DNA of 5,691 nt from Candidatus Alcyoniella australis (GTDB lineage: Bacteria; Lernaellota; Lernaellaia; JAVCCG01; Alcyoniellaceae). The position numbers and the translations under genes were made by a program. Of the stretch, positions 1-5,691 are shown in pieces (the stretch's first letter is position 1; each line of letters opens with the position of its first letter). Under the pieces are notes generated by a model that was given only the letters and a program-made list of their open reading frames with translations, made no database searches and had not been told where the DNA came from. The stretch covers positions 1-5,691 of the forward strand of contig JAVCCG010000137.1 of assembly GCA_030765605.1 (NCBI GenBank), read 5' to 3'.

Positions 1-271
1 CGAACTTGCCGCCCACGCTGGATTCGCCGAGCACGCCGGTCAACGGCGAGCGGAACAGCAGCGAGGTCTTGCACGCCGTGGGCACGGGAAAACCGGTGAG
101 CAGGCCGTTGGCGATCACCAGCGCCTCGTCGTCGTTGCCGTCGATGAACAGCTTGGCGCCGATACCGCCACCGCCTAGATAGAGTTTAAGATCAGCCGGG
201 TCGACGTCGAAACGTTCGACGCCGCCCGAGCTCAGATCGATGCTGATAAACCGACCGTAGCGACTTGGCAT
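1..271 (-). CDS. Aldehyde:ferredoxin oxidoreductase (AOR family), N-terminal 90 residues, truncated by window edge
   Basis: Family members are cytoplasmic tungsten (or molybdenum) bis-pterin enzymes with a [4Fe-4S] cluster that oxidise aldehydes to acids and reduce ferredoxin. Visible in the translation: the opening beta-strand YGRFISIDLSSG (residues 5-16), the glycine turn GGGGIGAK (33-40), LVIANGLLTG (51-60), VPT (63-65), and SPLTG (75-79) followed by GESSVGG. These match the AOR N-terminal pterin-binding domain in order and spacing. The cluster Cys and most of the catalytic domain lie outside the window. The start is ATG at 269-271, preceded by AGAGAGG (280-286 on the complement) with an 8-nt spacer. 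It is the third gene of the minus-strand operon, 42 nt after the ThDP lyase-like gene. Oddities: the usual GxRG turn is GGGG, the loop at residues 42-50 is about 8 residues shorter than in Pyrococcus AOR, and the pterin-contacting Arg is Lys68. It is therefore a divergent AOR of unknown substrate. Confidence 0.85.
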   Translation of the reverse strand, partial: MPSRYGRFISIDLSSGGVERFDVDPADLKLYLGGGGIGAKLFIDGNDDEALVIANGLLTGFPVPTACKTSLLFRSPLTGVLGESSVGGKF

Positions 272-313
272 AGCCGCAACCTCTCTTAAAAAAGGGTCAG
301 CAAGTCGTAATGA

Positions 314-2008
314 CTAGGCCTTCATGTTGCCCAGGTTGGCCAGGGCCACGGAGCCGGGGCTGATCGGCTCGGGATCGGCCATCACGTTGATGCAGGCGGT
401 CTTGCCCGAGGCGAATGCCTCTTCCAGCGCGGGCCGGATGCCGTCGGGCTGATCCACGTACAGCCCCTTGCCGCCCAGCGCCTCGACCATCTTGTGGTAG
501 TCCACCGGGCCGATGTGCGTGCCCGCGTCAATGGCGTGACCGATACGCAGCACCTGGCTGTGACGGATCATGCCCCAGCCCAGATCGTTGTTGATCACGA
601 CCACAGTGGGCAATCCCTTGCGGATCGCGGTCTCAAACTCCATGAAGTTGAAACCCACCGATCCGTCGCCGATCACCAGGCAGACGCGCTTCTCCGGATA
701 GAGGTACTTGGCCGCGTTGGCGAACGGAAGGCCCACGCCCAAGCAACCGTATAAACCCGAATCCATGTAGTGCGCCGGTTTGCGGGTGGTGCGCGTCATG
801 CCCATCCAGACCTGGGTGTCGCCGCCGTCGGCGATCACGATGTCGTCATCGCGGTCCATGAAGTCGTTGATCTCGCGCATCACGCGTAACGGATGGATCG
901 GCACATCGTCGCTTTCCCAGTTGGGCTGGGCCTGCTCCTTCATGTCGGTGTGCATTTCGCGCAGCTCAGAAACCCAACCCGCGAACTTGGCCGTAAGCTC
1001 GTTGCCCACGCCCGATTCGTCGAGCTGACGATTGCACTCGGCCAGCAGGCCGCGCACGTCGCTGACGATTCCCAGATCGATCGAACGGTTGCGGCCGATC
1101 TCCTCGGGCTCGATGTCGACCTGGACAAACTTGGCGTCTTGCGGAAACACATCGCCGAACACGTAGTAGAGGCTGATCCGCGTACCCAGCAAGATCACCA
1201 AATCGGTTGATGTGTTGGCGACCATCGCCGCGCCGGGACGGATCGCCAGCGAGCTCTCAAAACACAGCGGATGGGTATCGGAGATCGTTCCGCGACCCAT
1301 ACCCGAGGTCATGGTCGGCACTCCGACCTTCTCGACGAACTCGGTCAGCTCCTTGGCCGCGTCGGCGTACCAGGCGCCGCTGCCCGCGATCACGATCGGA
1401 TGCTGGGCCTGGCGGATCATCTCGATCATCTTCGCCGCGTTGCCCGCGTCGGCGTAGCACGAGCAGACGTCGGTCCGGGGGCGCTTGGCGCAACCTTCGT
1501 CGACCTCCGCATTGAGCACGTCCACCGGCAGTTCGAGGTAGACCGGGCCGGGGCGGCCGCTGGCTGCCGTGCGGTAGGCCATGTCCACGAACTCGCAAAC
1601 GCGCTCGGGACGCTGGCAGACAAAGGCGCGTTTGACCATCGACTCGATCACCGGCGCCTGACGGATGTCCTGCAGGTCGAGGCGCTCGGAACTCTCGATG
1701 CCCACCGCGCCGGAGATCAGCACCAGCGGAGTGTTGGACATCCGCGCGTTGGCAATCGCGCTCAGCGTATTGGTGAAGCCCGGTCCGGCCGTGACCATCG
1801 CGGTTCCGGGTTTGCGCGTCAGCCGGCCGTAGGCCTCGGCCATGAACACCGCGGACTGCTCGTGCCGTGTATCGAACAGCGTGACATTCGAGTTTTCGAG
1901 GTGTTGGTAGATCGGAGTGATATGACCGCCGCTGAGGGTGAAGATCGTATCGATCCCGCGATTGATCAGGGCCTCGGCCACGAGTTGCGCGCTGCTGACT
2001 TTGGACAT
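314..2008 (-). CDS. ThDP-dependent enzyme, 2-hydroxyacyl-CoA lyase (HACL2/ILVBL)-like, acetolactate synthase superfamily
   Basis: This 564-residue protein has the full three-domain layout: PYR domain (about 4-170), central Rossmann-like domain (about 190-335) and PP domain (about 372-545). The ThDP-activating Glu is E50 in DTRHEQSAVF. TAGPG is at 73-77 and SGRPGPVYLELPVDV at 150-164. The Mg/ThDP motif starts at GDGS (447-450) and ends at N473-N474. From memory, SGGHI, DTRHE, the TAGPGFTNT stretch, GCLGVG (421-426), DYHK (503-506) and the C-terminal PGSVAL fit HACL2/ILVBL-type proteins better than biosynthetic IlvB. No IlvN-like small subunit is adjacent. Expected chemistry is C-C cleavage next to a carbonyl, for example 2-hydroxyacyl-CoA to formyl-CoA plus aldehyde; a 2-oxoacid decarboxylase or carboligase remains possible. 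The start is well supported: AGGAGA (2015-2020 on the complement) lies 6 nt upstream of ATG. The next gene, an aldehyde oxidoreductase, could take the released aldehyde (inference). Confidence 0.85.
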   Translation of the reverse strand: MSKVSSAQLVAEALINRGIDTIFTLSGGHITPIYQHLENSNVTLFDTRHEQSAVFMAEAYGRLTRKPGTAMVTAGPGFTNTLSAIANARMSNTPLVLISGAVGIESSERLDLQDIRQAPVIESMVKRAFVCQRPERVCEFVDMAYRTAASGRPGPVYLELPVDVLNAEVDEGCAKRPRTDVCSCYADAGNAAKMIEMIRQAQHPIVIAGSGAWYADAAKELTEFVEKVGVPTMTSGMGRGTISDTHPLCFESSLAIRPGAAMVANTSTDLVILLGTRISLYYVFGDVFPQDAKFVQVDIEPEEIGRNRSIDLGIVSDVRGLLAECNRQLDESGVGNELTAKFAGWVSELREMHTDMKEQAQPNWESDDVPIHPLRVMREINDFMDRDDDIVIADGGDTQVWMGMTRTTRKPAHYMDSGLYGCLGVGLPFANAAKYLYPEKRVCLVIGDGSVGFNFMEFETAIRKGLPTVVVINNDLGWGMIRHSQVLRIGHAIDAGTHIGPVDYHKMVEALGGKGLYVDQPDGIRPALEEAFASGKTACINVMADPEPISPGSVALANLGNMKA

Positions 2009-2045
2009 CTGAACTCTCCTGTGAATTCTGGATTTGCTATTTCAT

Positions 2046-2061
2046 GACGCGAGATCGCGCC
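2046..2061 (-). repeat. Short GC-rich inverted repeat between the SDR and lyase genes
   Basis: In the minus-strand transcript, 6-nt arms GGCGCG and CGCGUC flank a 4-nt loop (AUCU) and pair with one G-U wobble. It sits in the 71-nt gap, about 18 nt after the SDR stop and about 25 nt before the Shine-Dalgarno sequence of the lyase gene. No U-run follows, so it is not an intrinsic terminator. An intercistronic processing or stability hairpin is possible, as is chance in GC-rich DNA. Confidence 0.35.
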
Positions 2062-2079
2062 GTGTTTTCTAGTTTGCGG

Positions 2080-2916
2080 CTATAGCTCCATCAACTGGCC
2101 GCCGGTGATGTTGATCGCCTGGCCGGTGAGATAGGATGAAGCCTGCGAGGCCAGGAACGCAACCAGGTTGCCCACGTCGCCCGGATTGCCGATGCGCCCC
2201 AGGGGAATCGTGCCGATCATCTCCTGCTCGCGCTGCTCCACGCTCTCGCCGGTAAAGTCGGCCTCGAGGCCGAAGCGCCACTTCTCCAGGTCGGTCATGA
2301 TCTGTCCGGGACAAATCGCGTTGACGCGCAAACCCGCGGGCGCCAGCTCTTTGGCCATCACCTTGGTGAGCATGATCACCCCGGCCTTGGCCACGGCGTA
2401 GGCGCTGTTGAGCAGCGGCGGGACCTTGCCCGCGCGCGACGCGGTGTTGACGATGCTTCCGCCGTTTTCCAGCATCAGCGGCAACAGGGCACGCGACACG
2501 CGGAACACGCCGTGCAGGTTGACGTCGACGGTCTTCATCCAAGCGGCCTCGTCGTAAGAGACCACCGAATTGGGCACGCCGAACGATGCGCCGGCGTTGT
2601 TGCACAGCACGTCGAGCTGATCGAAGTTCTCACTGATCTGCTCGACCATCTTGGCGATGCTCTGCGCGTTGGTCACGTCGAGGTCCACGGCCAGACCCTT
2701 GACGCCGTAGCGCTGCGCAAGGTCGGCGGCGATCGATTCCATCTCCTCGCGCGAGCCGGTGCGCACCGCAAAGTCGCCGCCCGCGATTGCGCCGATGTCG
2801 GCGATGATTACGTTGGCGCCGTTGGCAGCGAGCTTCTCGGCAATGGCATAGCCGATGCCCGTGCGTTTTCCGGCTCCGCTGATCAGTGCCGTTTTTCCCT
2901 TTAGATCTTCGTACAT
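2080..2916 (-). CDS. Short-chain dehydrogenase/reductase (classical SDR, probably NAD-dependent)
   Basis: A 278-residue cytoplasmic oxidoreductase of the classical SDR family, with all key motifs intact: the glycine-rich cofactor loop SGAGKRTGIG (13-22), Asp40 at the end of the second strand (favours NAD over NADP), NNAG (106-109), and the tetrad Asn133, Ser160, Tyr173 and Lys177. PG follows at 203-204 and the C-terminal ITGGQ at 270-274. It resembles FabG/glucose-1-dehydrogenase-like SDRs; the substrate cannot be read from sequence. The distance from Asp40 to the next conserved Asp-Val (80-81) is about 14 residues longer than in typical FabG. The start chosen is ATG at 2914-2916 because a perfect AGGAGG (2921-2926) lies 4 nt upstream. 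An in-frame ATG 15 nt further upstream (2929-2931) has no Shine-Dalgarno sequence and would place AGGAGG inside the coding region. It is the first gene of the operon with the ThDP lyase-like and AOR genes, likely interconverting a hydroxyl and a carbonyl on a pathway intermediate (inference). Confidence 0.9.
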   Translation of the reverse strand: MYEDLKGKTALISGAGKRTGIGYAIAEKLAANGANVIIADIGAIAGGDFAVRTGSREEMESIAADLAQRYGVKGLAVDLDVTNAQSIAKMVEQISENFDQLDVLCNNAGASFGVPNSVVSYDEAAWMKTVDVNLHGVFRVSRALLPLMLENGGSIVNTASRAGKVPPLLNSAYAVAKAGVIMLTKVMAKELAPAGLRVNAICPGQIMTDLEKWRFGLEADFTGESVEQREQEMIGTIPLGRIGNPGDVGNLVAFLASQASSYLTGQAINITGGQLMEL

Positions 2917-2960
2917 CGCGCCTCCTGGCATTAATAATTGAGGTTGGCGTTTGAGCTTAA

Positions 2961-2982
2961 TTCATATACTGAACGCTATTCA
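2961..2982. promoter_or_regulatory. Candidate operator: TTCA-N5-TGAA-N5-TTCA
   Basis: Three four-base half-sites alternate in orientation at exact 9-bp steps: TTCA 2961-2964, TGAA 2970-2973, TTCA 2979-2982. They form two overlapping inverted repeats. One covers the -10 of the leftward promoter, the middle half-site sits in its spacer, and the third abuts the -35. The outer two extend to the direct repeat ATGAAT on the complement. The arrangement suits a dimeric repressor, for example TetR or MarR type, but no regulator gene is in the window and the half-sites are short. Confidence 0.4.
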
Positions 2983-2989
2983 TTGTCAA
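2961..2989 (-). promoter_or_regulatory. Sigma70-type promoter for the SDR-lyase-AOR operon
   Basis: Reading the complement, a perfect -35 TTGACA (2984-2989) is followed by a 17-nt spacer and TATGAA (2961-2966), which matches 4 of 6 positions of the -10 consensus. Transcription would begin near 2954, giving a leader of about 38 nt to the SDR ATG with AGGAGG just before it. The surrounding AT-richness contrasts with the GC-rich genes. TTCA/TGAA half-sites lie across it, suggesting repression. Confidence 0.65.
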
Positions 2990-3018
2990 CCCCGATCTAT
3001 GTTCGCTTTTGCCTTTTC

Positions 3019-3047
3019 TTGACCCCCTTGTACCGCTGTCTCACAAT
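3019..3047 (+). promoter_or_regulatory. Candidate promoter for the ceramidase-like gene
   Basis: TTGACC (3019-3024, 5 of 6 matches) and CACAAT (3042-3047, 4 of 6) are separated by 17 nt. Initiation near 3054 would leave a short leader containing the GGAGG at 3059-3063. It is back to back with the leftward promoter, about 30 nt away, so one regulator could affect both directions. Confidence 0.4.
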
Positions 3048-3072
3048 ACCGACCGCACGGAGGTTGCACAAC

Positions 3073-4365
3073 ATGGTTTCACAGCTCAGGGGCAAGTCCA
3101 AGGCCCGCAGACTGCGCATTGGTTTTGCCAAACGCGAGATCACTCCGCCGCTGCCCTTCCCGTTGGCCGGGATGGGCGATCGCCACGAGCGCCTGGCCTC
3201 GCAGATCCGCGATCCGCTCTACTCCCGGGCGCTGGCCGTATCCGACGGTCGCAACGCCGCGCTGGTGATCTCGACCGACCTCCTGCTGATCACCGACCAA
3301 CTGCGCCTTGCGGTTGAACAGCGTCTGCAACAGTCCGGCAAAAGTTATATCGGTCTGATGCTCAGCGCCACGCACACCCATTCGGCCTGCGGTGGATATT
3401 GGTCTGCGCCTTCGGCCAAACTGTTCATGGGAACTTACCGTCAAGCGATCTTCGACCTGCTGGTGGAACGGATCGCCGAGTCGGCCGCCGCCGCGCTGGA
3501 CGATCTGAAGCCCGCGCAGCTGAGCCTGGGGCAGGTGCAGACCGAGGGGCTGAGCTACAACCGCCGTCACGCGGATGGTCCCATCGACCGCACCCTTGGC
3601 GTGCTCACCGCGCGCCGCGCCCGCGGCCGCGACGTGCGCCTGGTTTGTTTCGGCGCGCATCCGGTTGCTGTCGGGTTTCGCAGCTACAACACAGCCTCGG
3701 CCGATTATCCCGGCGCGCTTATCGAGCTGATCGAACGTCAGGGATTTGACGCGATGTTCATCGTCGGCCCGGTGGGCGGAGTCAACGCGCTGTTTCCCGA
3801 GGGCCCGATGGAGATGGACGTGCATCTGCGTATGCTCTCCTCGCTGCTGCACGAGCAGGTCGAGACGGCCGCTGCCGACGAGCGGCCGATCAAGGGTAAC
3901 GACGTGGCTTTCGCCGCGGGCGAGGCCAAAATCGTACTGCATACGCCGCGGCTGTTTCCCGACGATCGGCGCTGGGCCGAGCGCCTGGCGCTACCGCTAC
4001 GGCTCTATCTGCGGCGCTTCGGCCACGGCGGCATGGGCAACGTACACGCCACGCGCGTGCCCGTGCTGCGTGCCGGAGAGCTGGTGTTCACCGGCTTTCC
4101 CGCGGACCTGGGTCATACCGTGGGGATCGCCGCGCGGCAGATGATCGAACAGGCCGGATTGCAGACCATCGGCGTGGCCTCGCAGACCGACGACTACGTG
4201 GGCTACGTGCACCTCGACGAGCAGTACGACCAGTTCGAGTCCAAGGACCGCTCAGCGCTGTGGATGACGATCTACGAAAACGGCCTGGGATTCGGCGGCC
4301 GCAGCGTGGGACCGGATTTGCTCGAGGCGTTCCGCGGCGCGCTGTTCAGCGTGCTCCCAAGCTAG
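3073..4365 (+). CDS. Neutral/alkaline ceramidase-like protein (N-terminal-domain fold), probably cytoplasmic, atypical active site
   Basis: A 430-residue protein. Numbering from the chosen start: IGFAKREITPPL (16-27) is the family opening; D47-P48-L49 precedes YSRALAV; ATHTHS (99-104) carries the metal-ligand His pair region; NRR is at 163-165; GAHPVAVG (195-202) supplies another likely ligand His; DDYVGYV (373-379) matches the conserved Asn/Asp-Asp-Tyr-x-Gly-Tyr motif with its metal-binding Tyr. Neutral ceramidases are zinc amidases that release sphingosine and fatty acid from ceramide. Here the nucleophile motif (GDxSPN in ceramidases) reads GGVNA (235-239), with neither Asp nor Ser, and the PGE segment reads PAD (343-345). 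No signal peptide is seen, unlike secreted ceramidases. It may be a different metal-dependent hydrolase on the same fold. Start: ATG at 3073 with GGAGG (3059-3063) 9 nt upstream; an ATG at 2938 would add 45 residues but lacks a Shine-Dalgarno sequence and overlaps both promoters. It is divergent from the SDR operon. Confidence 0.8.
   Translation: MVSQLRGKSKARRLRIGFAKREITPPLPFPLAGMGDRHERLASQIRDPLYSRALAVSDGRNAALVISTDLLLITDQLRLAVEQRLQQSGKSYIGLMLSATHTHSACGGYWSAPSAKLFMGTYRQAIFDLLVERIAESAAAALDDLKPAQLSLGQVQTEGLSYNRRHADGPIDRTLGVLTARRARGRDVRLVCFGAHPVAVGFRSYNTASADYPGALIELIERQGFDAMFIVGPVGGVNALFPEGPMEMDVHLRMLSSLLHEQVETAAADERPIKGNDVAFAAGEAKIVLHTPRLFPDDRRWAERLALPLRLYLRRFGHGGMGNVHATRVPVLRAGELVFTGFPADLGHTVGIAARQMIEQAGLQTIGVASQTDDYVGYVHLDEQYDQFESKDRSALWMTIYENGLGFGGRSVGPDLLEAFRGALFSVLPS

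Positions 4366-4429: not shown

Positions 4430-5691
<1,262 letters not shown>

Follow-up and report, generated by a model that had tools for sequence, protein, structure and literature searches.

The 5,691-nucleotide window analyzed here is the entire contig JAVCCG010000137.1 (C137) of Candidatus Alcyoniella australis, whose 4.29-Mb genome (G000) is 98% complete, and it carries the start of an operon with a gene for a thiamine diphosphate (ThDP)-dependent enzyme. Open reading frame (ORF) coordinates and Pfam domains agreed with the preliminary description of this DNA in placing genes for a short-chain dehydrogenase (SDR1; adh_short_C2), the ThDP enzyme (three TPP_enzyme domains), and an aldehyde ferredoxin oxidoreductase (AOR; AFOR_N) on the minus strand, with gaps of 71 nt (SDR1/ThDP) and 42 nt (ThDP/AOR). 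The identity of the AOR gene was likewise upheld, but the window holds only its 5' part. The first 127 bases of C137 overlap exactly with the last 127 bases of another contig, C126, so the AOR gene that is cut at position 2 continues there; the joined 608-aa ORF contains CFACPIAC (CxxCxxxC) and a fourth Cys in LGLC. The first gene 3' of AOR in C126, on the same strand, encodes an MFS carrier and overlaps at its start with the AOR stop codon; it is followed by genes for a sodium-coupled anion symporter of the DASS family (TIGR00785, 242.8 bits versus a cutoff of 198.6) and for a TetR regulator. The operon is SDR1, ThDP enzyme, AOR, MFS carrier, DASS symporter, and TetR (Table 1). The start of SDR1 was chosen by alignment to relatives (MYEDLKGKT), and the pattern upstream of it (1 match versus 0.01 expected), described earlier as a strong promoter, is better called promoter-like.

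Table 1. Features of the window and of the AOR continuation in C126.
Feature	Position	Strand	Basis
AOR, N-terminal 90 of 608 aa	2..271 + C126:61160-62842	-	AFOR_N 63.5 bits; AFOR_C 374.8 bits on remainder; contig overlap
ThDP-dependent C-C lyase/decarboxylase, single chain, 564 aa	314..2008	-	TPP_enzyme_N/M/C; own clade; conserved H29, E50, Q113
Short-chain dehydrogenase SDR1, 278 aa	2080..2916 (ORF to 2931)	-	adh_short_C2 194 bits
Promoter-like TTGACA-17-TATGAA	2961..2989	-	Upstream of SDR1; consensus match only
Ceramidase_alk-like gene	3073-4365	+	Divergent from SDR1; 66.5 bits versus cutoff 32.1, N-terminal part only

A genome scan queried with three close orthologues of the ThDP enzyme identified 76 named loci, chiefly in Desulfobacterota, Syntrophales, Spirochaetes, and SAR324 metagenome-assembled genomes (MAGs), plus Desulfosarcina widdelii. 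SDR1 lay immediately 5' of the ThDP gene on the same strand at 57 of the 71 loci with enough flanking sequence, and the two genes are a conserved pair in anaerobes; the SDR1 residues S165-Y178-K182 (283-aa numbering) are conserved in 73 orthologues. Gene order in G002, another genome of the class, is identical to that of the window operon (54-74% identity), and G004 has SDR-ThDP-MFS-TetR with no adjoining AOR or DASS gene. The third genes at ThDP loci vary and include BASS, MFS, or DASS carriers, SDR2 or a Zn-dependent MDR, TetR, Xsc, acetate kinase, TauE/SafE, and AOR, with TauE/SafE and acetate kinase recurring near the ThDP gene. Neighbors expected for CoA chemistry did not emerge, as CoA-transferases were absent among the recurrent partners at ThDP loci and AMP-ligase homologues (27-39% identity) were sporadic.

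The ThDP enzyme had been described as a HACL2-like lyase in a possible breakdown module for lipids or 2-hydroxyacids. In our phylogenetic tree, from which human HACL2 and AcHACL were absent, it belonged to its own well-supported clade, apart from both HACL/HACS/OXC and IlvB/IlvI/Gcl/Xsc. The HACL/HACS/OXC enzymes clustered together with 100/100 support, the window enzyme lying outside, and a topology forcing HACL/HACS together with the window clade was rejected (p-AU 2e-60). Acetolactate synthase was rejected as an identity because IlvB/IlvI occupy a separate 100/100 branch. A larger set (support 96/92) unites the window clade with benzaldehyde lyase (BAL), which is a long branch in a polytomy, and with GGH-motif enzymes. 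The catalytic residues of BAL are retained in 85 ThDP orthologues (His29 100%, Glu50 100%, Gln113 98%), and HACL1, HACS, and OXC carry Pro at the position of His29. The ARS motif common to HACL, HACS, and Oxc is missing from the ThDP enzyme, whose loop has the length seen in BAL, IlvI, and Xsc; this motif probably corresponds to the CoA contacts R273/S274 of AcHACL (PMC8760513). A Gly-His pair of AcHACL also touches substrate (PMC13327070), and this His by itself is thus not enough to rule out a CoA substrate. The NCBIfam HACL model scored 348 bits, under its cutoff of 600, the top PDB sequence score was to a HACS (tied with BAL), and I481 of the window enzyme stands at the position where Ile554 is reported for human HACL2 (PMC13327070). 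The AlphaFold model was confident (pLDDT 90.5), and its comparison with known folds did not discriminate among HACS, BAL, OXC, Gcl, and AHAS (Z about 42-44). The architecture, one chain with three TPP domains, is unlike the ComD/ComE type, and the ComE-type model TIGR03846 did not appear in the list of the 25 top-scoring NCBIfam models. Three genomes (G001, G003, and G005; loci L016, L019, and L020), from a sister family within the class that does not have the window operon, possess a different GGH-type, PRK05858-like ThDP enzyme.

A second ThDP gene adjoining many of the operons encodes true Xsc (TIGR03457, 760-845 bits versus 676.4), a link that the preliminary description overlooked, as it did the transporters. 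Across 241 Desulfobacteria genomes, Xsc was found in 28 of the 37 carriers of the ThDP gene versus 18 of the 204 noncarriers (Fisher 5e-17); 15 ThDP-Xsc pairs were separated by 4 kb or less, and the recurrent operons were SDR1-ThDP-BASS-SDR2-Xsc, the canonical order, to which acetate kinase and TetR genes are often added, and SDR1-TetR-Xsc-ThDP-BASS-SDR2-AckA. The beta subunit of sulfopyruvate decarboxylase exceeded its cutoff in three of the 241 genomes, one of them a ThDP carrier, and this near absence of the known enzyme means that another source of sulfoacetaldehyde is needed. The data point to sulfoacetaldehyde as the ThDP product in the Xsc operons. At locus L049 (5631-9173, minus strand), genes for HpsG and HpsH, the glycyl radical enzyme for 2,3-dihydroxypropanesulfonate (DHPS) and its activase, are divergent beside the ThDP and Xsc genes, and at L050 an HpsG gene (product 91% identical to L049 HpsG) adjoins the ThDP gene divergently; SDR1 is not beside the ThDP gene at these two loci. 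Xsc scores were bimodal (about 740-775 and about 900-940 bits), with the ThDP-adjoining Xsc mostly in the lower group. Xsc-ThDP operons at L082 and L142 also contain an MfnA-like pyridoxal phosphate (PLP)-dependent decarboxylase and a 449-aa protein with no Pfam or NCBIfam match (L082:6240-9073 and L142:8262-11095).

Operons with AOR differ from the others in their genomic setting. Genome-wide, Xsc occurred in none of 10 AOR-type genomes (G000 included) versus 23 of 43 other carriers (p 0.003), DsrA in none of the 10 versus 31 of 43 non-AOR carriers (p 3e-5), and the DASS gene was present at 8 of 10 AOR-type loci versus 1 of 60 others (p 4e-8). The AOR-type ThDP sequences are interspersed on the ThDP tree, with eight changes, and none of the pocket positions inspected fully separates the AOR from the Xsc types. 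These contrasts are suggestive of a division in which sulfite respirers desulfonate the aldehyde by Xsc and other hosts oxidize it by AOR. The operon AORs, including the G002 orthologue, are nearest to 1AOR; formaldehyde oxidoreductase was rejected as an identity because 1B25 is more distant. A literature search found no paper tying AOR to sulfoacetaldehyde, HACL, or BAL.

On balance, we lean slightly toward reading the operon as an AOR-using variant of a catabolic module by which anaerobes degrade a hydroxylated organosulfonate of three carbons, with sulfolactate and DHPS as the likeliest candidates. At the level of protein families the roles are fixed by the data: import, alcohol oxidation, ThDP-dependent cleavage, and aldehyde handling. 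All of the substrates and reaction directions, and an aldehyde shared by AOR and Xsc, are what we infer. The sulfonate would be imported by MFS, BASS, or DASS carriers, judging by family, and its hydroxyl group oxidized by SDR1, joined in relatives by SDR2 or a Zn-dependent MDR. The ThDP enzyme would then split an alpha-oxo or alpha-hydroxy carbonyl sulfonate into sulfoacetaldehyde and a one-carbon piece, which would be CO2 from sulfopyruvate or formaldehyde from the ketone of DHPS or from sulfolactaldehyde. Hosts with dissimilatory sulfite reductase may use Xsc to convert sulfoacetaldehyde into acetyl phosphate and sulfite, along with acetate kinase; in hosts lacking that reductase, such as that of the window, AOR would oxidize the aldehyde, presumably to sulfoacetate, with reduction of ferredoxin, leaving the dianion to be handled by the DASS protein. 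Of the relay from ThDP lyase to AOR proposed earlier, this scheme retains an aldehyde-forming C-C lyase or decarboxylase and AOR as the likely oxidizing enzyme, and drops the fatty aldehyde and its lipid context. A fuller scheme, a new biochemical route in which a BAL-type lyase yields sulfoacetaldehyde from an oxidized C3 sulfonate and this front end feeds either Xsc for sulfite respiration or, in organisms that do not respire sulfite, a fermentative ending with a tungsten AOR that makes sulfoacetate, passes electrons to ferredoxin, and relies on DASS for export, is a tentative extension that we would sooner doubt than assert.

Several observations weigh against this reading. Neither Xsc nor dsrA was found in G000 or its class, so nothing in the host's own genome proves that the substrate is sulfonated. 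The AOR/Xsc/DsrA contrasts are confounded with ancestry: in ancestry-paired form, the six pairs gave zero same and about two to three opposite outcomes, with no pair in the contrary direction, which is not significant. Many of the genomes with AOR-type operons are also MAGs of small size that may be incomplete. HpsG was rejected as a regular partner because, despite the two adjoining loci, it co-occurred with the ThDP gene in 0 of the 37 Desulfobacteria carriers. The R-DHPS determinant of HpsO, Gln147, is two residues past the catalytic Ser (PMC11131964), and SDR1 has Ala167 at that position, as judged by the published motif. Plasmid searches for HpsO, HpsP, and HpsU gave generic SDR and MDR matches only. 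Furthermore, ThDP pocket positions 399 and 417 lean differently in the AOR and Xsc types, and the AOR-type operons could use an unsulfonated analogue.

Two submodels assign different chemistry to the ThDP enzyme within the organosulfonate reading. According to the first, which we regard as rather unlikely in its specific form, the enzyme decarboxylates sulfopyruvate as an analogue of ComDE, such that SDR1 would oxidize sulfolactate to sulfopyruvate and the ThDP enzyme would release sulfoacetaldehyde and CO2. The sulfolactate-sulfopyruvate-ComDE-Xsc route is known (PMC11382572), ComDE is nearly absent from the genomes considered here, the DASS and PanS-like BASS carriers fit a 2-hydroxy acid or a dianion resembling malate, and no gene for handling formaldehyde would be necessary; the MfnA-like decarboxylase in some operons could hint at cysteate. 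The BAL-type His29 is, however, typical of hydroxy-carbonyl C-C lyases, and HpsG beside the ThDP gene in two loci points to DHPS. These two features instead suit the second submodel, about as doubtful as the first, of a sulfo-acyloin lyase: SDR1 with MDR or SDR2 would oxidize DHPS to 3-hydroxy-2-oxopropanesulfonate or sulfolactaldehyde, and a retro-benzoin cleavage would give sulfoacetaldehyde and formaldehyde. Conservation of all three BAL residues, the grouping with BAL and GGH enzymes away from CoA and acetolactate enzymes, and the presence of HpsH with HpsG at L049 argue for such a lyase. HpsO shares the SDR1 family (PF13561), HpsP shares the PF00107/PF08240 domains of the MDR, and HpsU is an MFS carrier (PMC11382572), but these resemblances concern very large families. 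Other considerations against it are the lack of Gln147 in SDR1, the lack of a conserved formaldehyde-processing gene in the Xsc operons, the long branch of BAL, and the report that HpsO and HpsP oxidize C3 rather than C2 (PMC11131964).

It is unlikely, in our judgment, that the AOR-type operons, including that of the window, act on an unsulfonated 2-hydroxy acid or acyloin, which SDR would oxidize, the ThDP enzyme cleave or decarboxylate, and AOR convert to an acid, with the Xsc-linked relatives being a specialized sulfonate branch. The missing Xsc and DsrA, the usual transport of dicarboxylates by DASS carriers, and the leaning of positions 399 and 417 are consistent with this alternative; the mixing of AOR types among Xsc types rather than in one clade, and the failure of any inspected pocket position to split them fully, argue against it. 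Very improbable, despite the HACS and HACL scores and the shared Ile noted above, is the HACL2-like 2-hydroxyacyl-CoA lyase of the preliminary description, forming formyl-CoA and a fatty aldehyde during lipid breakdown with a ceramidase-like enzyme (or its relative acting on sulfolactyl-CoA), given the subthreshold HACL score, the separate clade, the missing ARS motif, the lack of conserved CoA ligase or CoA-transferase genes near ThDP loci, the unlinked ceramidase homologue, and the anion transporters in the operon.

The divergent ceramidase-like gene is present as described earlier, but its arrangement beside SDR1 is not conserved. No ceramidase homologue was found at 78 ThDP loci; sets of SDR, ThDP, and AOR genes recur there without the proposed fourth family, and the gene is not counted in the module. 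Homologues occur in seven of seven genomes of the class, with several paralogues per genome; G002, G004, and G006 carry orthologues of 55-59% identity, and the three remaining relatives have matches of 33%. In G002 and G004 the orthologues and the operon are on separate contigs. The ceramidase link was rejected on these grounds, and a lipid pathway is probably not encoded here. The protein is short, resembles the N-terminal part of the neutral ceramidase family (PF04734), and is far under the NCBIfam ceramidase equivalog cutoff (49.2 versus 1200 bits). The remainder of the window (4430-5691, plus strand) encodes a Cys-rich, secreted-looking protein with a terminal poly-Asp tract (GAC/GAT repeats); the tract matches ~40 places in the genome and the contig stops within it, presumably an assembly break.

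If the organosulfonate reading holds, the operon represents a conserved variant of organosulfonate catabolism for which we found no description in the literature searched. Among organosulfur currencies, DHPS and sulfolactate are abundant, yet the known sulfopyruvate decarboxylase was not found in most of the sulfate reducers that have both Xsc and the ThDP gene; the operon offers a single-chain candidate that spans Desulfobacterota to Spirochaetes and the class of the window host. The reading predicts that the ending of the pathway, Xsc or AOR, switches with the ability of the host to respire sulfite, and Desulfosarcina widdelii is a cultured host of the operon.

Among known systems, the Xsc pathway for sulfolactate and DHPS (HpsNOP, SlcD, ComDE, and Xsc; PMC11382572) would share with the proposed route the conversion of a C3 sulfonate to sulfoacetaldehyde and then to acetyl phosphate and sulfite; the SDR, MDR, and MFS families are common to both, and true Xsc is present in the operons of relatives. 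The operons differ in having no recognized ComDE or HpsN, with a single-chain BAL-like ThDP enzyme instead, and AOR would replace Xsc in the branch of the window. Benzaldehyde lyase (PDB 2AG0)/formolase resembles the ThDP enzyme over its full length, including the C-terminus and His29/Glu50/Gln113 (TM about 0.9), but identity is about 31% and pocket residues differ, with A480 replaced by M, F484 by S, and the H415 region by S/Y in the window enzyme. HACL/HACS and oxalyl-CoA decarboxylase share the superfamily, the fold, and the Gln113 equivalent, whereas the window enzyme is in a separate clade, lacks ARS, and has His29 rather than Pro. In the sulfo-TK variant, SqwD and SqwKL convert sulfoacetaldehyde to sulfoacetate (PMC12890257), an anaerobic oxidation with energy gain like the one envisaged here; that system employs a CoA-acylating dehydrogenase and an ADP-forming ligase, whereas the window operon would use AOR and ferredoxin.

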